A DNA stretch of 64,000 nt, from assembly GCF_964204645.1 (NCBI RefSeq), contig NC_134035.1:13311951-13375950 (forward strand), read 5' to 3'. A program made the position numbers and the translations under genes. The notes below the pieces were generated by a model, which did no database searches, was not told the DNA's origin, and saw nothing but the letters and a program-made list of their open reading frames with translations. This DNA is from Tubulanus polymorphus. Taxonomy: Eukaryota > Nemertea > Palaeonemertea > Tubulaniformes > Tubulanidae. This document shows, piece after piece, positions 1 to 63,215 of this stretch (positions are counted from its first letter, which is position 1; every line of letters starts with the position of its first letter).

Positions 1-352
1 CTAACCATGCTGTTGGTTTTTAGCAGTTTAAACCTACCAACTTTTGAGCAGCGGTAGTTTTAGTCCAAAGGGCTTCACAATTTTCTACAAGTTATTTCAA
101 AATAACCAGTGGAGAACTGAAAATTGACTTCTTAAACTTGCAACTATTTCCATTATCCACTGAACCACTTTTGAACAAATAGTAATTGGGTTTAAGTTAA
201 AACTATTCAAAACCTGGACCAATTGCTAAGGCAAGGTTTGGAGTCTATTTTGGTTCAATAACCGGCCTAACGAGTTAAAGCGAGTAAAGTTCATGACAGC
301 GAATCTGTTTATTTAGAAAAATCATGTTTATATTTTCTCTATTTCCTTGTAG

Positions 353-1725
353 GAATTCATTTGAATGTAATCGAAGGAAGCGATGACCCGGAACGCGAAT
401 CTTATGACAACATCGTTGCAATCGATGACGTCATCAGAACGGTGTTCTCAATGAAACATAAGACGACCGTGTCGTGTTTGATTGGTAACGCCGGAGCCGG
501 TGGGGCGATGATGGCCGCCGCTACCGATTTCGTTTTTGCTCATAAGGTACGAGTCTTCCTAAGAGGGTTATATGTGCCCCTAGCCCGGGTTCAAACTCTC
601 TCGGTTAAGATTTGAGTCTTCTATTCAAAACGTTGACTAATTTAACCAAGTATGTTGACCAAGTTGTATAACCTGGTTATACCTGTTATCCTCGACCTAG
701 TTATTCGTGACCTAGTTATTTACGACCTAATTATACGTGACCTCGTTGTCTATAACCTAATTATTTATTCATTGCATCGATAGCAAACTCCATGAATGAA
801 TGATTTATTTACTTGTACAAGATTATAAACAATCAATTCTTTGGATATAATTTCATAGATAAATAGGTACATGTATAAGAAGGACAACCCCAAGCCCTAG
901 GGGCTGAGCCACCATCATCAATGATTCATTGAAATACTGTTTATGCTTCTCTTATTTCAGGGAGTTGTTTTGACGCCTACGTATAAAGCGATGTACCTTT
1001 ACGGATCGGAATACTGGACGTACTTCCTGCCGCAGAGGGTCGGTTACGACACGGCGCTGTCTTTGACAAACGACACGAAATCGATGATGGCTTCAACTGC
1101 TCAACGTATTGGACTAGTCGATCAGATCATCGGACGGTATGAGTACCCCCAACCAACTCATCTCTTACTCTCTCCGTCTTCTTTACCTTTCCCATTCTCC
1201 CCTCCTCAGCTGAATCTGCCTCTCACTCCATCTTCCCCAGCCTCCCACCCTATCCCATTCCCCTCCCCACTCTCAACCCTCCCGATCCATCCACTCGCTG
1301 TCGCTACCAATTGCTTTCGTCGCTTCTCTTTTAGCACTTGCTTTATATTCATCCAGGTCCACTTTCCAATATACCCCCCCCCATCCTTAATTTCATCCAC
1401 ACAATTTTCTTTTTATGCATTCTGATGACTTTCATGAAAGAAATGATAACCGCAAGCAGGTACTGAAAATGTATTCCACAAAATTCACGCCCGTATTTTT
1501 GTTTTTAACAGGAATCGACCGGAAGCGTTGGGAAATTTACACGATCGAGTCCTGAATTTGTTACAATCGGAAAAATGTCAAACGAAACGTGAAGAGAAAC
1601 GCAATAGAACTCACGAATGGTATCAGATGTTAGAGGAACATCGAACCGAAGAATTGAGCAAAATGCAGAAATGTTTCAGTAGCGAGGATTATCACGAGGC
1701 CAGGAGAAAATTCGTCTATCACTGA
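353..1725 (+). CDS. HypX/HoxX-like protein, C-terminal enoyl-CoA hydratase-type part (5' partial gene)
   Basis: Three exons are read as 353-546, 961-1136 and 1512-1725 (stop TGA). Entry into the first is phase 1, the next junction is phase 0 and the last phase 2, all with GT/AG borders. The roughly 194 visible residues begin GIHLNVIEG. They contain the crotonase oxyanion-hole segment GNAGAGGAMMAAATD, then YLYGSEYWTYFLPQRVG and IGLVDQIIG, and end in DYHEARRKFVYH. This order and the ending are characteristic of bacterial HypX/HoxX rather than of ordinary enoyl-CoA hydratases. Bacterial HypX joins an N-terminal formyl-transferase half to a C-terminal crotonase half and makes CO from a formyl donor for [NiFe]-hydrogenase maturation. 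The formyl-transferase half should lie upstream, outside the window. Animals have no such hydrogenase, so the role here is unknown. Bases 1-352 are intron. The spliced structure argues against bacterial contamination. Confidence 0.85.
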
Positions 1726-1829
1726 ACGGCATAGACACAGACTGTTCACCTAATACCACGAGGCCTGAACGACGTTTACACAGACTGTTAAACCCACTAC
1801 CACGTCCGGCTTTAACTCTCTAGGACTCG

Positions 1830-1975
1830 ATCCACAGTTCTGAGTTAACTCGGAGCCGAATCTTAACTCACCGTGGATCTGGGTCCCGGTGGAACAGGGT
1901 TCGTAACTGTGGTGGAACTTGAACCAGCGTGCACTGAATCCTGAACTGTGGAACTGGGTCCAGAGTGTTATTGAA
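1830..1975. repeat. Degenerate copy of the AACTGTGGAACTGG element family in a 3' UTR
   Basis: This stretch carries TCCACAGTTCTGAGTTAACT near its left end and GAACTGTGGAACTGGGTCC near its right end. These match the inverted ends of the element at 41448-41560 and 55375-55495. It lies downstream of the HypX-like stop codon and so is probably transcribed as 3' UTR. It is a decayed copy; exact borders are uncertain. Confidence 0.5.
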
Positions 1976-2019
1976 CTAAGTCGGGAACCAACGAGAACCG
2001 GGTGTATTGGGTTCGATAC

Positions 2020-2222
2020 TTTATTTAGTTTTCTAAAATTCATTGATCATTCTATATGATTTATACGTACGATGCGGTGTATTGAAAAACCAACCAACCC
2101 AAACAGGGACTCGTAGAATCAACAAGGAGAGAATTTTGCAAAGGGGGCTCAATTCCAAACAATTTGTAAAAAGGTTGCAGCACACCGATGACGTCATATC
2201 ATTTTGTATCGTGTACAATAAA
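2020..2222. terminator. Convergent poly(A) signals of the HypX-like gene and GPCR copy A
   Basis: AATAAA stands on the plus strand at 2217-2222, about 490 bases past the HypX-like stop. AATAAA stands on the minus strand at 2020-2025, about 265 bases past the GPCR stop at 2288. If both are used, the two converging 3' UTRs overlap by roughly 200 bases. The hexamers are seen; their use is inferred. Confidence 0.5.
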
Positions 2223-2287: not shown

Positions 2288-3340
2288 CTAAGATGTTTTG
2301 CGTGACCAGCATTTCATCCATGTTACAATAAAAGCGGCTTCCGAACGGAATTTCCTATTTGTAAAACAATAAACACTGAAATTAGCGCAAGAATCAAACA
2401 TTGACATCAACAGCGACACCTTTCTCATAATCATGTTGCTAGGTCCAGTGAAAATGTTTAATTCCAATCGATCCAAACAACCAGGAAATTCACAGATAAT
2501 ATAAACCACAACAACTGCTGAAACCATCCGCAATATTCCTGCATCTTTTCCCTGAACAGCAGAGCCGACTATTAGCGACTTACGGCGGTTTTTGGTCCAT
2601 GTATAAACAGCAAATAGGACGATGTTAACAATCAAAAGAAATGCGATCGGTAGATAAATGATACCAAACGCGATAAGATCATGGTGTTTAATGTAACCTC
2701 GCAGAAAGTGGGTTCCAGTCGGAAGATAGGTAATGTCTGTGTACTCCTCAAAGTACATGGTGTAAGTATATTGACCTGGTTTCAAACAGGGCCATCTCGT
2801 TAAACCCGGTATCCTGCGAGGAATTATGAAATCATAGTAAAACAAAATTGCCAAAAACAACAGCGTAAAGCAGACGAAATTAATAGTCAAAGGTCTCCAG
2901 AAGCGTCTATACGTTAATGGGAAAATTATAACTAAAATTCTCTCTAAACTCACAACAACGACGAGCCAGTTTCTGACAAACTGTGACGGATACAGTCCCA
3001 TATAGGCGACAGTAATAAACCACCAACCAAAATGCCAGTCGTCATAACGAAAAACCAAGTCTCCCAGATTACTGTAAATGAAATACGTTCTCAGCGGGTA
3101 CATGATAAAAGATGATAAACTGAACGCAAGATCAGAAACCGCTAAAAGACAAATTGTGTGATAACAACTACTATTGCGTAGTCTGCGTATAATGATAATA
3201 GTCAGAATATTCAACACAATACCACAAACAGTAACAGGACCCATTCCTGTCATATAGATGTAAACACTGAACTGATAGTTCCATCTTATTGTCTGAGAGC
3301 AATGATACGTCGCGGTCGGACGAGAACCGTTCACTGCCAT
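2288..3340 (-). CDS. Rhodopsin-class GPCR, peptide-receptor-like, copy A (intronless)
   Basis: A single uninterrupted frame of 350 residues starts MAVNGSRP, with an N-glycosylation site (NGS) at residues 4-6. Seven hydrophobic segments are visible. Recognisable landmarks are GIVLNIL in TM1, LAVSDLAFSL in TM2, NWLVVVVSLERILVIIFPL at the end of TM3 (ERI in place of DRY), CEFPG in TM6 and DSCANFSVY in TM7 (in place of NPxxY). This set resembles the FMRFamide-receptor-like GPCRs expanded in many invertebrates. The usual cysteine before TM3 is not apparent, while the second extracellular loop keeps WPCLKPG. The C-terminal tail is very short and ends SRKTS. It is one of three tandem copies on this strand, with copy B at 4803-5870 the closest relative. 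The ligand cannot be told; chemosensory or neuropeptide use are both possible. The start is supported by the shared MAVNGSRP start of copy B. Confidence 0.85.
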   Translation of the reverse strand: MAVNGSRPTATYHCSQTIRWNYQFSVYIYMTGMGPVTVCGIVLNILTIIIIRRLRNSSCYHTICLLAVSDLAFSLSSFIMYPLRTYFIYSNLGDLVFRYDDWHFGWWFITVAYMGLYPSQFVRNWLVVVVSLERILVIIFPLTYRRFWRPLTINFVCFTLLFLAILFYYDFIIPRRIPGLTRWPCLKPGQYTYTMYFEEYTDITYLPTGTHFLRGYIKHHDLIAFGIIYLPIAFLLIVNIVLFAVYTWTKNRRKSLIVGSAVQGKDAGILRMVSAVVVVYIICEFPGCLDRLELNIFTGPSNMIMRKVSLLMSMFDSCANFSVYCFTNRKFRSEAAFIVTWMKCWSRKTS

Positions 3341-3694
3341 TGTTCACACTCTCAGTAACCACGAGTCATACACTGCTTTCCACAAAGTTAACATAATATT
3401 AACATTTGGCGGCACAAATAATTTCATCCTTTCTATTCTTCAGAAACTTCCTGACTAAATCCAAACTTCTGTTGTGTGTCGGATTATTCTTCATTGATTA
3501 AGCGAGTGTAAAGCAGCATGGCCTAATTTCATTGGACACATTCGTAGAATCTAGTTTATTCTATCGTTTTTACAATAGCCGGTCATATTTCATTCGATGA
3601 AAACTAAATTTAGAAAATCGTGTATTTTAGCAGTGAAATTCTGTTGAAATATGAAATGACTTTGTGCACGAATTTTGCATTGTGTTGAATCTGA

Positions 3695-4089: not shown

Positions 4090-4799
4090 TTATCGAATTT
4101 TCAAAATGTGTTTTATCCTTGTAAGAACAACGGCGGCTTCAAAACGAAATCTTTTATTCGTCAAACAATAAACGGTAAAATTCACACAAGAATCAAACAT
4201 TGACATCAACAGTGACACTTTCCTCACAATCATTTTATTTCGGGTTTTGAAAATGAAACGGAAAATATTCATAGGCATTCGATCAAAACAACCCGGCAAT
4301 TCGCAGATAATATAAACCACAACAACTGCTGAAACCATCTTCAATATTCCTGCATCTTTACTCCGAGCAACAGAGCCACCTATTAGTGATTTACGGCTTT
4401 TTTTGTCCATGTATAAACAGCAAATAGAACAGCGTTTACAACTAATAGAAATGTGATTGACAAGAAAACGATACCAAACGAGACTCGATCGTTGTGGTCA
4501 ATGTTACCGTTCAAAAAGTGGTAGTCACCGAAAAGACGAGTCGTGTCCGTATACCTCTTAAAACAAACTGTATAAATAAACAGGGCCATCTCGTTAAACC
4601 CGTTATCCTGCGAGGAATTATGAAATCAAAGTAAAGTAAAATTGCCATCGAAAGCAGCATAAAACAGAGTAAATCAATAGTTAAAGGTCTCCAGAAGCGT
4701 TTACAATTTAATGGGAAAATTATAACTAAAATTCTCTCTAAACTCACAACAACGACGAGCCAGTTTCTGACGAACTGTGACGGATACAGTCCTATTAAG
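4090..4799 (-). pseudogene. Truncated, frameshifted GPCR copy
   Basis: Homology to the flanking receptors runs from GLYPSQFVRNW (just before TM3) to the C-terminus (KHILKIR and stop), but everything before TM3 is missing. The coding is broken twice. Near 4575-4590 about 16 bases present in the intact copies are absent (in the loop that reads WPCLKPGQYTYT in copy A). Near 4400, within the lysine codons after YTWTK, a further shift occurs. The left edge of the homology abuts the 3' end of copy B directly (around 4800), so a tandem duplication with deletion, or unequal crossing-over, probably removed its promoter and first third. It should not make a receptor. Confidence 0.88.
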
Positions 4800-4802
4800 G
4801 TA

Positions 4803-5870
4803 TCATGGTATCGCATTTCTAAGATGTTTTGCGTGACAGCGGAATTTGATCCATGTTACAATAAAAGCGGCTTCCGAACGGAATTTCCTATTTGTAAAAC
4901 AATAAACACTGAAATTAGCGCAAGAATCAAACATTGACATCAACAGCGACACCTTTCTCATAATCATGTTGCTAGGTCCAGTGAAAATGTTTAATTCCAA
5001 TCGATCCAAACAACCAGGCAATTCACAGATAATATAAACCACAACAACTGCTGAAACCATCCGCAATATTCCTGCATCTTTAGTCTGGGCAGCAGAGCCA
5101 CCTATTAGGGATTTACGGTGTTTTTTGGTCCATGTATAAACAGCAAATAGAAGAGCGTTTGCAACTAATAGAAATGTGATTGGCAGATACACAATACCAA
5201 ACGAGATTAGATCGTTGTGGGTTATGTAACCATCGAAAAAGTGGGCGGCAGTGTATAGATATGTGATATCTGTATACTTCACGAAGGAAGTGGTATAAGT
5301 ATACTGACCTGGCTTCAAACAGGGCCATCTCGTTAAACCCGGGAACCTGCGAGGAATTATGAAATCATAGTAAAATAAAATTGCCAAAAACAACAGCGTA
5401 AAGCAGACTAAATTGATAGTTAATGGTCTCCAGAAGCGTCTATACGTTAATGGGAAAATTATAACTAAAATTCTCTCTAAACTCACAACAACGACGAGCC
5501 AGTTCCTGACAAACTGTGACGGATACAGTCCTATAAAGCCTACATATATAAACCACCAGCCAAAATGCCAGTCATCATAACGAAAAACCAAGTCTCCCAG
5601 ATTACTGTAGATAAAATACGTTCTCAGCGGATACATGATAAAAGATGATAAACTGAACGCAAGATCAGAAACCGCTAAACGACAAATTGTGTGATAGCAA
5701 CTATTGTGCAGTCTGATTATAATGATAATAGTCAGTATATTCAATAGAATACCACAAACAGTAACAGGACCCATTCCTGTCATATAGATGTAAACACTGA
5801 ACTGATACTCCCATCTTATTGTCTGAGAGCAATGATACGCAACGGTCGGACGAGATCCGTTCACTGCCAT
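4803..5870 (-). CDS. Rhodopsin-class GPCR, peptide-receptor-like, copy B (intronless)
   Basis: A 355-residue frame closely matches copy A throughout: MAVNGSRPTVAYHC at the start, LAVSDLAFSL, NWLVVVVSLERILVIIFPL, a CELPGCLDRLE segment in TM6 and NFSVYCFTNRKFRS at the end of TM7. The sequence upstream of the start (CACTCTCAGTTACCACGAG on the plus strand) also resembles that of copy A, so the duplication included the proximal promoter. The tail differs. A net two-base difference from copy A near the 3' end moves the frame past the stop used in copy A and adds KHLRNAIP. The stop TGA lies in the junction with the pseudogene at 4803-4805. Divergence between A and B is concentrated in the second extracellular loop, where ligand contacts often lie. 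Confidence 0.85.
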   Translation of the reverse strand: MAVNGSRPTVAYHCSQTIRWEYQFSVYIYMTGMGPVTVCGILLNILTIIIIIRLHNSCYHTICRLAVSDLAFSLSSFIMYPLRTYFIYSNLGDLVFRYDDWHFGWWFIYVGFIGLYPSQFVRNWLVVVVSLERILVIIFPLTYRRFWRPLTINLVCFTLLFLAILFYYDFIIPRRFPGLTRWPCLKPGQYTYTTSFVKYTDITYLYTAAHFFDGYITHNDLISFGIVYLPITFLLVANALLFAVYTWTKKHRKSLIGGSAAQTKDAGILRMVSAVVVVYIICELPGCLDRLELNIFTGPSNMIMRKVSLLMSMFDSCANFSVYCFTNRKFRSEAAFIVTWIKFRCHAKHLRNAIP

Positions 5871-6536
5871 TGTTCACACTCTCAGTTACCACGAGTCATA
5901 CACGACAGTACCCTGCTTTTACATAGTTAACACAATTACATTCAGCGACAAAACCATTTCATCCTATTTAATTCTGCAGAAACTTCCTGACTAAATTCAC
6001 ACTTCTGTGGTCTGGTGATTCTACTTTCACTGATAAATTGAGTGTAATAACCAGAGTAGGCCTGATGTAATTTCATTGGACACATTTTCATTGAAATCAG
6101 ATTACCTTTACCGGTCTCACAGTGTAGCTGATAGATATTTCACTCGGCGGTGATATTAGAAAATCAAGAATTAACAGCGATGAAATTCTGTTGAAACATT
6201 TAGAATGGTTTAATCTCCAATCAGCATCTTAGTGAGTTAGTGAGTTAAGGATGCTTGCTGTACCTTATTAGTACCGAGAGACAAGGGGGTACGGCCGGCT
6301 TTACTGGCAGCTAACAGGGTGTGGGCAACACATCAATGGCCATGGTCCGGTCGTGAAATTAATTTCTATTTATCAGGTTATGTTGGATTTTTCTCCATAA
6401 GATTTTATTACTTCTGCAGTAGATTCCGGGTTAGTTGTTTATTTCTGATTTGGTTCCACGAATGAGAATCGAACCGCTAGAACTGAGAGATGAATAAAAC
6501 ACAAACTAACACAAATCAGTAATGAAACGGCTTTTC

Positions 6537-6855: not shown

Positions 6856-26356
<19,501 letters not shown>

Positions 26357-35100: not shown

Positions 35101-38100
35101 ACGGGTGTTCACATAGAACCAGTGTTCATATAGTGAACATAGAACTAGTGTTCATATCGAACTGTTCGACAGTTGTGAGTTAAAATCTATTCATCTTCAA
35201 TGATTTTAATTCTAATCAAGTCTGAACAGTTGTGAGTAACTCATGAGTTAAAATCAATTCATTTTCAACGAGTTAACTCCGAACCAAATCTTAACTCACA
35301 ACAGTGGAACTGGTTCGTGGTGTGTTCATGTAGAACTGGTGCCTGAGTGAGAGAGAGAGAGATGTAAAACTACCGGCTGATTTAAAACAAACACAAACAC
35401 AATGCTACGAATGCTGCGTTCATTCTCACGTTAATCAATAAACCGTGCGATAAAACAACAACCTATAAAACTAACACACTTCAAAATTAACATTATCAAA
35501 ATGATTTCCGATGAATCTCGAAATTTCGCAAATTTCTCAGCCGATAATTTCACAAATTTCCTTTCATCGAAAAACGAAAACGACAACGATTTTTAATCAG
35601 CATCGAACGACATCGATATCCATCACCAGTGAGTCGACTTACTCCCGAGTCGGTAACTTTCCGTTAGCCGCCGATAAACCGCCTTGACCTCCCGCAAAAC
35701 CGTAACCGTGGATACCGAATTCACGTCCGTAACATGTGAAACAATAAACCTCTTCCTGATGTAATTTAGATGTTCGAGCGTCTAATAATTTACTGCAACC
35801 AACTACAATTAACCAAACCATCGTCGTAACCAACCATTAACCTAGTAACCATAGTTATTACTGATTGTAACCATAGAAACCAGCCATAACCGTAGTAACC
35901 ACTGGTAATAACCATAGAAACCAACCGTTAACCTAGTAACCAGAGTTGCTACTGATTGTAACCATAGAAACCAGTCATAACCATAGTAACCATTGGTAAT
36001 AACCATAGAAACCATCAATTACCATAGTAACCACAGGTATGGTATATAATAACAGAGCAGGTATTAACCCTTTCAGTGCAGAGTACTCCACACTGCGGTG
36101 TATAACCCACCCACGATACATCGCATCTACTCTTACCCACCGTGCGGTGTATTCATGTAATTATTAATTAGTTACGTAAAATCTCTATTGAAAGAGGCAG
36201 CACCTGTCAAACATAGAAATACTCACAGCGGGGTAAGAGTATATCATAGCACTGAAAGGGTTCAATCATTAAGATGTATCGAGCAGTTAGTTGTTCACTA
36301 ATAGTGTGAGATCAGTAGTCACTGCATTCATTGAAACTCCTGGGCCCGGTTCTAAAGTCATGGCTTAGTCTTAAGACCAGTCTAAGACTGTGTTAGTTTA
36401 TCTCAATAATCGAGCAACTTAAGACCGATCTTGATGTTTAAAAATACTTTTGGACTTATCAGTCTTAACTCTGGAACCGGGCCCTGGGTACAACCTCCCC
36501 GGGTGAAACCTCCCCGGGTACAACCTCCCTGGGTACAACCTCCCCGGGCACAACCAAACCATCCTCTTTCAATACTTACGGCACTTTAAACAGAGTTTAT
36601 GGAATTTTTTTCCGCCGGCTTCGACACATTCAGCGTGATAAACCGTCGTCTGACAACGATGACATTTATCGCCACCTCCGAATTTAGAAGCTAACGGATT
36701 AGATTGAGTCGGTCTCGCCGGCTGCTGCCTGCATGAAAACAAATAATAATACTGTAGAAATTGTCAAAAATTAGTTATTTTGACCGACAGTATTAAAAAC
36801 ATGGGAAATGAACGATTCTGAACTCTAGGACAGACCAGACAACTTGATATCTCTAACTGGAGTAGTTTTCACAAAAATTTAGAATAGATTGACTAGATTC
36901 GACTGAAAAGTCGTTGTTTAATTGAAAATGAACTAGAAATTATTGTGATTTTGAGAGTAACTTGATAGTCTTGGGATCAGTTGAGCTCTTTAAAGAGAGT
37001 AGGAATGACTACCAAGTCACATCTGCTCGAGTCACACTCATTTGAACAGAGTCCTCTAGTGACAGACAGATAGACAGAGATTGACAGACAGAGATAAACG
37101 GACAGACAGACAGAGATAAACGGACAGACAGACAGACGTACGTATTGGTAGATTCAGCACCGTGTTCAGTTGATAACCCAGCACCACCACCTCCACCAAA
37201 CCCGTATCCAGCTGCGCCAAACTTCTTCTTATGACACGGTATACAGTATGGTGTACCATCGTGATCGGCTGAATTACCTCCTTCTAATGTTTTACCGCAA
37301 TCGTCTAAAAACAGAAAATAATCTCACGTCACAAACTGTTACTCAGTATTTGACACCAACTCGGGGTAGAATTTTACCAGTCTCAACCTTACCGCAGTAA
37401 GAGACAGAGTCTACTGTATTTAACAAACTCTTACTCAGTATTTGACACCAACTCGGGGTAGAATTCTACCGGTCTCAACTTTACCGCAGTAAGTGACAGA
37501 GTCTACTGTATTTCACAAACTCTTACTCAGTATCTGACACCAACTCGGGGTAGAATTTTACCGGTCTCAACTTTACCGCAGTAAGAGACAGAGTCTACTG
37601 TATTTCACAAACTCTTACTCAGTATTTGACACCAACTCGGGGTAGAATTTTACCAGTCTCAACTTTACCGCAGTAAGAGACAGAGTCTACTGTATTTCAC
37701 AAACTCTTACTCAGTATTTGACACCAACTCGGGGTAGAATTTTACCATGCTCAACCTTACCCCAGTAAGAGACAGAGTCTACTGTATTTCACAAACTCTT
37801 ACTCAGTATTTGACACCAACTCGGGGTAGAATTTTACCATGCTCAACCTTACCGCAGTAAGAGACAGAGTCTACTGTATTTCACAAACTCTTACTCAGTA
37901 TTTGACACCAACTCGGGGTAGAATTTTACCAGTCTCAACTTTACCGCAGTAAGAGACAGAGTCTACTGTATTTCACAAACTCTTACTCAGTATTTGACAC
38001 CAACTCGGGGTAGAATTTTACCATGCTCAACCTTACCCCAGTAAGAGACAGAGTCTACTGTATTTCACAAACTCTTAATCAGTATTTGACACCAACTCGG

Positions 38101-38285
38101 GGTAGAATTTTACCATGCTCAACTTTACCCCGAGTAAGAGACAGAGTCTACTGTATTTCACAATCAAACTTACCGCATTTAAAACAGCTTTGATGCCACG
38201 TTTTATTCAAAGCCTTTCTTTCCTCGTTGAAATAAACAGATTTATTACATTTGGCACAAGTCGGTCCTCCACCATAAACCGGCAT
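32112..38285 (-). CDS. Three-LIM muscle-type LIM protein (CSRP/MLP family)
   Basis: Exons in transcription order: 38174-38285 (ATG at 38285), 37142-37304, 36580-36728, one of 35643-35802 or 33755-33917, 32894-33020, 32626-32719 and 32112-32188 (stop TAG). Phases agree throughout, giving 293 or 294 residues. Each LIM domain is split across exons just at its central cysteines. LIM1 begins CAKC and continues WHQSCFKCDDC to YCIPC. LIM2 is CHRC, FHKLCLKC and then the alternative half. LIM3 is CFRC, FHKQCFKCKMC to YCKGC. After every domain comes the Gly-rich CRP-type linker (GYGFGGGGGAGLS, GPKGYGYGGGAGAL). CRP/MLP proteins bind alpha-actinin and actin-associated partners at Z-discs and in the nucleus. 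An acceptor at 38319 starts the coding exon, so a non-coding first exon lies further right. Vertebrate CRPs have two LIMs; some invertebrate MLPs have more. Confidence 0.92.
32560..32612. repeat. G-rich low-complexity tract in LIM intron
   Basis: Runs of GGGGTGAGAGGGGG on the plus strand (C-rich in the transcript) directly beside exon 32626-32719. Being next to the donor, it could influence splicing, but this is only positional. Confidence 0.7.
33255..33440. repeat. 24-bp purine-rich minisatellite in LIM intron
   Basis: About seven units of AATGGGAGGAAGAGAAGGAT GAGG, preceded by a longer GA-rich tract from 33060. It lies between alternative exon 33755-33917 and exon 32894-33020, and is CT-rich in the transcript. 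Confidence 0.9.
33755..33917 (-). CDS. LIM2 second half, alternative exon b' (mutually exclusive)
   Basis: After its acceptor (33918-33920 CAG) this 163-base exon completes the split codon as Q. It encodes TCNKLLTPGSIKQHQDG, LYCPSCYGKDFG and a Gly-rich linker, ending in phase 2 (GA) before GTAAGT. Entry phase 1 and exit phase 2 equal those of 35643-35802. Spliced after exon 36580-36728 it restores LKC-Q-T-C, the correct CxxC spacing. No separate first-half LIM exon exists between 33918 and 35642. Confidence 0.85.
34838..34871. repeat. (TA)n microsatellite
   Basis: A short TA run of about 12 units in the intron between the two alternative LIM exons. Confidence 0.85.
35165..35330. mobile_element. 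Partial AACTGTGGAACTGG-family element
   Basis: GTTGTGAGTTAAAATC on the left and CTTAACTCACAACAGTGGAACTGG on the right match the element at 41448-41560; part of the left half is duplicated. It lies in the LIM intron upstream of alternative exon b'. Confidence 0.6.
35643..35802 (-). CDS. LIM2 second half, alternative exon b (mutually exclusive)
   Basis: A 160-base exon completes the split codon as L and encodes GCSKLLDARTSKLHQEE, VYCFTCYGREFG and the linker GYGFAGGQGGLS, ending PTRE in phase 2 before GTAAGT. Its zinc ligands fit LIM2 perfectly (LKC-L-G-C, then CFTC). Joining it to 33755-33917 would read GAA AAC GTG CAA TAA, a stop, so only one of the two can be used. Confidence 0.85.
35830..36055. 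repeat. Degenerate AACCATAGAAACC tandem repeat
   Basis: Many imperfect copies of ACCATAGAAACCA and AACCATAGTAACCA in the LIM intron between exons 36580-36728 and 35643-35802. Confidence 0.8.
36352..36486. mobile_element. GGCCAGTTGCATAGTC-family MITE, LIM intron copy
   Basis: CTGGGCCCGGTTCTAAAGTC on the left and CTCTGGAACCGGGCCCTGGG on the right are inverted repeats, with AAGACCAGTCTAAGAC inside. The termini have shifted from GTTGCATAG to GTTCTAAAG. A CTCCCCGGGTACAAC repeat follows at 36486-36555. Confidence 0.7.
37329..38165. repeat. 92-bp satellite filling a LIM intron, about 9 units
   Basis: Units at 92-base spacing (TCAGTATTTGACACC at 37343, 37435, 37527 and on) occupy about 840 of the 869 bases of the intron between exons 38174-38285 and 37142-37304. 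They are the reverse complement of the array at 24237-24560. High unit identity indicates recent homogenisation. Confidence 0.93.
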
Positions 38286-62814: not shown

Positions 62815-63215
62815 GTGAACTGTGGAACTGGATCCAGAACAGTAGAACTGATTCAAAGCAGTGGTACTGGATCCAGAACTGTGAAACTGGATTCAGAACT
62901 GTAAAACTGGATTCAGAACTGTGGAACTGATTCCAGAACTGTGGAACTGGATCCTGAACTGTGGAACTGAATCTAGAACTGTGGAACTGGATCCAGAACT
63001 GTGGAACTGGATCCAGAACTGTGGAACTGGATCCAGAACTGTGAAACTGGATTCAGAACTGTAAAACTGGATTCAGAACTGTGGAACTGAATCCAGAACT
63101 GTGGAACTGGATCCTGAACTGTGGAACTGAATCTAGAACTGTGGAACTGGATCCAGAACTGTGGAACTGGATCCAGAACTGTGGAACTGGATCCAGAACT
63201 GTGGAACTGGACTCT
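62815..63215. repeat. 20-bp minisatellite, unit GAACTGTGGAACTGGATCCA
   Basis: About 20 units, the same unit as at 25745-26010 and, inverted, 17534-17835. A higher-order repeat of about 180 bases is visible (62860-63030 matches 63040-63210). To its left, GACCTGATTCCACAGTGTTC resembles the start of an AACTGTGGAACTGG-family element. Confidence 0.92.

Follow-up and report, generated by a model that had tools for sequence, protein, structure and literature searches.

Why would an animal carry a gene for HypX, a protein named for hydrogenase maturation? The locus that raises this question lies at the beginning of a 64,000-nucleotide stretch of the genome of the nemertean Tubulanus polymorphus (G000:C11:13311951-13375950; hereafter, the window), in an assembly of 267.8 Mb and 77 contigs. 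The first-pass annotation, made from the sequence of the window alone, had read its first exons as the crotonase half of HypX, down to the ending YHEARRKFVY, in a spliced gene of an animal without hydrogenase. No account of HypX in animals or other eukaryotes was found among the literature matches listed, which leave preprints and most subscription journals outside. Neither the HypX fold nor its presumed chemistry is new; the novelty lies in finding together an animal genome, no detected hydrogenase, a presequence-like N-terminus, and a lost C-terminal tail.

The window starts within the gene, which has three exons inside it and three upstream, all on the plus strand of the 14-Mb contig C11. 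The upstream exons are exon 1 (G000:C11:13309861-13310739; L002 7461-8339), exon 2 (G000:C11:13311058-13311237; L002 8658-8837), and exon 3 (G000:C11:13311561-13311828; L002 9161-9428), in which the crotonase-like domain starts; L002, the upstream DNA, joins the window through an overlap (window 1-450 = L002 9551-10000). The window itself opens in the 3' part of intron 3 (1..352), a phase 1 intron of 474 bp that begins upstream. Exon 4 (353..546; C11:13312303-13312496) encodes the middle of the crotonase-like domain, based on the spliced translation, the match to HypX in the PDB, and the genome search. It is followed by intron 4 (547..960; 414 bp, phase 0, GT..AG), exon 5 (961..1136), intron 5 (1137..1511; 375 bp, phase 2, GT..AG), and exon 6 (1512..1725), in which the protein end YHEARRKFVYH precedes a TGA stop (1723-1725). 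A probable 3' untranslated region occupies 1726..2222 on the same strand, with a candidate poly(A) signal, AATAAA, recognized by eye at 2217-2222. All acceptors of exons 4-6 were AG and both donors were GT, giving a single open frame of 193 aa. Together with introns 1 and 2 (318 and 323 bp), the gene has five introns in its coding region, all bounded by canonical splice sites, in agreement with the earlier claim of a spliced gene in an animal genome, and its six coding exons yield an intact frame of 636 aa. Searching the genome with the HypX protein core returned six matches, which were the six exons of this gene, the sole copy found. The start codon is predicted from the genomic frame, and the gene is presumably transcribed.

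Compared with the PDB, the 193-aa piece encoded by exons 4-6 matched Aquifex HypX with an E-value of 8e-36 (chain residues 366-560), while the best ordinary enoyl-CoA hydratase reached 2e-6, so that the assignment of these exons to the crotonase half of HypX was borne out. With the 636-aa protein as the query, residues 82-634 aligned to Aquifex HypX at 1e-98, and the runners-up were 10-formyl-THF dehydrogenase (5e-10) and the best enoyl-CoA hydratase (2e-7). Pfam placed Formyl_trans_N at residues 115-216, Formyl_trans_C at 259-356, and ECH_1 at 396-634. The architecture of the family, a formyltransferase N-terminal half and a crotonase-like C-terminal half, is therefore present and collinear with HypX throughout, and the formyltransferase half, which the first-pass annotation had suggested looking for to the left, is encoded by the upstream exons. 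Since the C-terminal half has the enoyl-CoA hydratase fold, an ordinary mitochondrial enoyl-CoA hydratase might have been taken for HypX. However, the HypX E-value is better by about 90 orders of magnitude and the N-terminal half is a formyltransferase; neither a hydratase N-terminus upstream nor a hydratase as the best match, the outcomes named beforehand as pointing to an ordinary hydratase, was observed. This reading is thus ruled out, with hardly any probability left to it, and based on sequence comparison the identity of the gene as HypX is near certain. An intact six-exon frame of 636 aa that keeps all proposed catalytic residues appears well past chance, and we consider the animal gene to be real, complete, and probably functional.

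The relatives that we found were all bacterial, as would be expected of a bacterial contaminant or a recent horizontal transfer, although the collections searched were plasmids, genome contigs, and viral contigs, with no animal collection among them. A tblastn search of plasmids returned 54 records with at best 38% identity, 10 of which were fetched for comparison. A scan of genome contigs gave no HypX match with the 193-aa piece alone; with an alignment query, the best 80 of 563 confirmed stretches showed 36-42% identity in the best segment. No HypX was found in viral contigs. Across the 90 bacterial rows examined, including the best 80 of 563 from the contig scan, identity to the animal protein over aligned columns peaked at 44%, and none of the 90 exceeded this value. 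Contamination is ruled out by the gene structure, with its five introns on a 14-Mb contig, and the neighboring exons of a TRP channel and the low-scoring 7TM receptor frames also argue against a bacterial source. Taken as one alternative, contamination or recent transfer is very improbable; for transfer itself, the sequences make a recent event unlikely and an old one possible.

To place the animal protein among bacterial homologs, we constructed two trees, a quick one with 91 rows and a careful one with 56 of them. In both, animal HypX formed a long branch (2.3 and 2.06, respectively) with no supported sister. A grouping with orphan HypX, that is, HypX encoded away from hyp genes, appeared in the quick tree with an SH-aLRT value of 80 and was discarded, as it was gone in the careful tree. 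Approximately unbiased (AU) tests of five placements, with the Bacteroidota placement left out, rejected none of them at 0.05 (p = 0.0655-0.387).

The remainder of the window contains several other features. Three intronless frames resembling 7TM receptors lie in tandem on the minus strand (2288-3343, 4090-4855, and 4803-5873); two are full-length and highly similar, and the one that separates them is a broken copy. The Pfam 7tm_1 scores of these frames fell below the cut-off. Exons of a TRP-type channel gene follow at 10475-13422 on the minus strand, with ankyrin repeats, TRP_2, and an ion-transport domain identified by Pfam. Together with the weak receptor frames, the introns, and the size of the genome, these exons mark the DNA as that of an animal. 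A 92-bp tandem repeat occurs twice (24253-24559 and 37329-38163), with consensus units that look reverse-complementary by eye. Arrays of a 20-bp unit near GAACTGTGGAACTGGATCCA or its complement are found at 17540-17832, 25746-25996, and 62817-63211, and a single word similar to this unit was noted by eye in the 3' flank of the HypX gene (1943-1962).

We then compared the active sites. According to the mechanism proposed for Aquifex HypX in PMC6802093, a triad of His74, Asp80, and Asp109 passes the formyl group to CoA, and formyl-CoA is then decarbonylated with the help of Tyr416 and Glu426. Based on the alignment, the triad corresponds to H76, D82, and D111 of the animal protein in core numbering, and the Tyr/Glu pair near the CoA thiol to Y433 and E442; the codons of this pair lie in exon 5, at 982-984 (Tyr) and 1009-1011 (Glu) on the plus strand. 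All five proposed residues are thus present, which answers the earlier suggestion to check the catalytic residues of both halves. Among the 90 bacterial rows, the His, both Asp, and the Glu were kept in every one and the Tyr in 87. The exceptions, L035, L042, and L063, are hyp-linked proteins of Bacteroidota that have Thr at the supposedly essential Tyr416.

Outside these residues, the animal protein departs from its bacterial relatives. The position of Aquifex R131, a CoA phosphate contact, is Val in the animal; it is Arg in 40/40 hyp-linked rows, and in the 50 orphan rows it is Arg in 32, Asn in 17, Thr in 1, and Val in none. Because Val, a residue found there in no bacterial row, replaces Arg131, CoA handling of the animal protein may differ from that of the bacterial ones. 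Beyond the position of Aquifex residue 542, the animal protein has no residues at all, while a tail of at least 15 aa was present in 79/90 bacterial rows (38/40 hyp-linked, 17/18 HypD-less, and 24/32 other orphan rows). We did not treat the tail as defining HypX because two bacterial proteins have next to no tail either (L019, 1 aa; L017, 8 aa). The motif TPxxLxxHR was found within the last 80 residues of 26/40 hyp-linked, 12/32 other orphan, and 2/18 HypD-less rows, and was not found in the last 80 residues of animal HypX. Given the long end branch of about 2 changes per site, the function of the animal protein may have shifted.

At the other end of the animal protein, about 80 residues precede the point where the bacterial proteins start. 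Residues 1-31 contain six K/R and no D/E, and the helical moment reaches 0.75 in the best segment of 18 residues, a value for which no control was computed. As read from the genomic frame, this extension looks like a mitochondrial presequence, and the presequence-like N-terminus may mean a mitochondrial location.

To determine whether the genome encodes a partner for HypX, we searched the 268-Mb assembly for two hydrogenase-related families, and neither PF00374 ([NiFe]-hydrogenase large subunit) nor PF01924 (HypD) gave a match. For the genes searched, the earlier description of an animal without hydrogenase therefore holds. A search for PF00551 found HypX and three other loci, which from their exons we take to be GART (C7), an ALDH1L-like gene (C3), and an MTFMT-like gene (C1); because these formyltransferase genes are split into exons, the search was able to detect exon-split genes. 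Haem oxygenase is the textbook source of CO in animals. Its family, PF01126, gave no match in the assembly, although the search could overlook a gene made up of short exons. HypX would be the only recognizable CO source of this animal if this absence is real rather than a miss caused by exon splitting. COX1 gave no match either, so the mitochondrial genome is probably missing from the assembly.

The animal is not alone in having HypX but no sign of hydrogenase maturation. We called a bacterial locus hyp-linked if hyp or hydrogenase genes occurred in the available DNA, at most 8 kb on each side and much shorter on several contigs; by this definition, 40 of the 90 loci were hyp-linked and 50 orphan. 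Whole-genome searches for HypD in 40 genomes with orphan loci found it elsewhere in 22 and not in 18, while it was present in 8/8 hyp-linked control genomes. Those without HypD, two of which (L027 and L071) are metagenome-assembled and maybe incomplete, included all 10 Pseudomonas (L051, L056, L060, L073, L076, L082, L084, L085, L091, and L095) and all 5 Lysobacter (L022, L028, L041, L055, and L071) among the 40. We also drew 149 genomes of the genus to which P. lini (L073) belongs and found a HypX match (E-value of 1e-40 or better) in 39, one of them partial. Each of the 39 had one strong match, and HypD was missing in 38. The five proposed catalytic residues were kept in all 18 HypD-less rows.

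These results indicate that, among the genomes examined, those of Pseudomonas and Lysobacter frequently have HypX without hydrogenase maturation, and that it probably does something else in them. Because the protein is kept in these HypD-less bacteria, calling it a "hydrogenase maturation protein" is misleading for some members of the family. Operon context was tried as a clue to function and abandoned: gene families common among the neighbors of orphan HypX were almost all confined to one genus, the little that connected different genera consisted of generic or antisense frames, and no function was inferred. A HypX tree was shown in a 2010 paper, and a proteomic study reported a HoxX-like protein from Chromobacterium violaceum, a species said there to lack hoxA (PMC3927592). 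Among the literature matches listed, HypX outside hydrogenase systems was thus at most hinted at, with no functional account.

Compared with the HypX/HoxX of Aquifex aeolicus (PDB 6J0P and related) and Cupriavidus necator, the animal protein shares the two-domain architecture over its whole length, the five proposed catalytic residues, and the motifs around NAGAGG and GSEYWTY. It differs in its animal host, in the undetected hydrogenase large subunit and HypD, in its six coding exons, and in the N-terminal extension, missing tail, and Val for Arg131 described above. With the orphan proteins of Pseudomonas and Lysobacter, encoded away from hyp genes, it has in common intact proposed catalytic residues and a genome with no HypD match; unlike them, it carries a long N-terminal extension outside the family alignment, and no grouping with them was supported. 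ALDH1L1 and ALDH1L2 have a homologous N-terminal domain that uses formyl-THF. These enzymes act on 10-formyl-THF, carry a C-terminal aldehyde dehydrogenase and a carrier domain, and produce CO2; their match to the animal protein reaches just 5e-10, and a separate ALDH1L-like locus exists elsewhere in the genome. Haem oxygenase would resemble animal HypX in producing CO in an animal, as homology suggests for the latter, while its fold and its substrate, haem, are unrelated.

What, then, might the animal enzyme do? Formation of CO via formyl-CoA by HypX of R. eutropha (C. necator) is called demonstrated in a 2025 review (PMC12134894). Because of homology and the conserved residues, the same route to CO is expected in the animal. 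The protein would be imported into mitochondria, where its N-terminal domain would take the formyl group from 10-formyl-tetrahydrofolate and load it onto a firmly bound CoA, and its crotonase-like domain would decarbonylate the resulting formyl-CoA, yielding CO, free CoA, and THF. The CO would serve not a hydrogenase but as a signal, as a ligand of haem or metal, or as the form in which surplus one-carbon units leave. To this reading as a whole, location included, we assign a probability of about 0.55; the missing tail, the replacement of Arg by Val, and the long branch are the reasons for doubt. Catalytic activity, CO as the product, and its physiological use are all predicted here from sequence.

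The same departures from hydrogenase-linked HypX in the surroundings of CoA could instead mean that the animal enzyme stops at formyl-CoA or diverts it, acting as a formyl-CoA synthase, or as a formyl-THF or formyl-CoA hydrolase that yields THF and formate but no CO. Crotonase-fold enzymes switch reactions easily. However, both residues proposed for decarbonylation are kept (Tyr433 and Glu442), and the genome apparently encodes an ALDH1L-like 10-formyl-THF dehydrogenase; because such an enzyme already recycles formyl-THF, a plain hydrolase would be redundant. We therefore consider loss of CO formation unlikely. A different question is whether CO itself is what selection has maintained. CO may be waste and the enzyme an overflow valve, selected for freeing mitochondrial THF and CoA at an unchanged redox state and complementing the ALDH1L-type dehydrogenase. 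This proposal overlaps the mitochondrial CO-releasing reading and differs from it only in what is selected. It would suit the presequence-like N-terminus, as well as the retention of HypX outside hyp clusters in hydrogenase-free bacteria, with its one strong match per genome. On the other hand, CO is toxic to cytochrome oxidase, and its routine release in mitochondria would need control, leaving this proposal possible but doubtful.

If the mitochondrial formyltransferase and decarbonylase reading is correct, it touches on an older problem. The carbon of serine is reportedly the source of the CO in siphonophore floats. Wittenberg reportedly addressed the source of this gas in 1960, and work by Wittenberg and colleagues is said to have given it a folate origin. 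To our knowledge, HypX is the sole enzyme whose chemistry fits folate-derived CO. The first-pass statement that animals have no known need for enzymatic CO was too strong, since siphonophore gas glands secrete CO, according to PMC6820529 and PMC3916360. Pneumatophore transcriptomes have been published for the siphonophore Nanomia septata (PMC13327316). In the literature matches listed, we found no name for the enzyme behind siphonophore folate-derived CO; no link of this CO to formyl chemistry was found in the literature searched, and the term "HypX" was absent from the main text of the siphonophore expression and genome literature examined.

We tentatively propose, at somewhat less than even odds, that a mitochondrial HypX converting 10-formyl-THF to CO serves animals as a second CO synthase, one independent of haem, and that this enzyme class is behind siphonophore float CO. 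Chemically, HypX joins one-carbon metabolism and the supply of CO, the two options between which the first-pass annotation had left the choice. The animal protein would link serine and formate one-carbon metabolism to CO, presumably in mitochondria, the very compartment whose terminal oxidase CO inhibits. If true, an unrecognized form of CO signaling or an exit route for one-carbon units may possibly exist in other invertebrates, and the old finding that the gas glands of siphonophores form CO from carbon carried by folate would gain a named candidate enzyme class.
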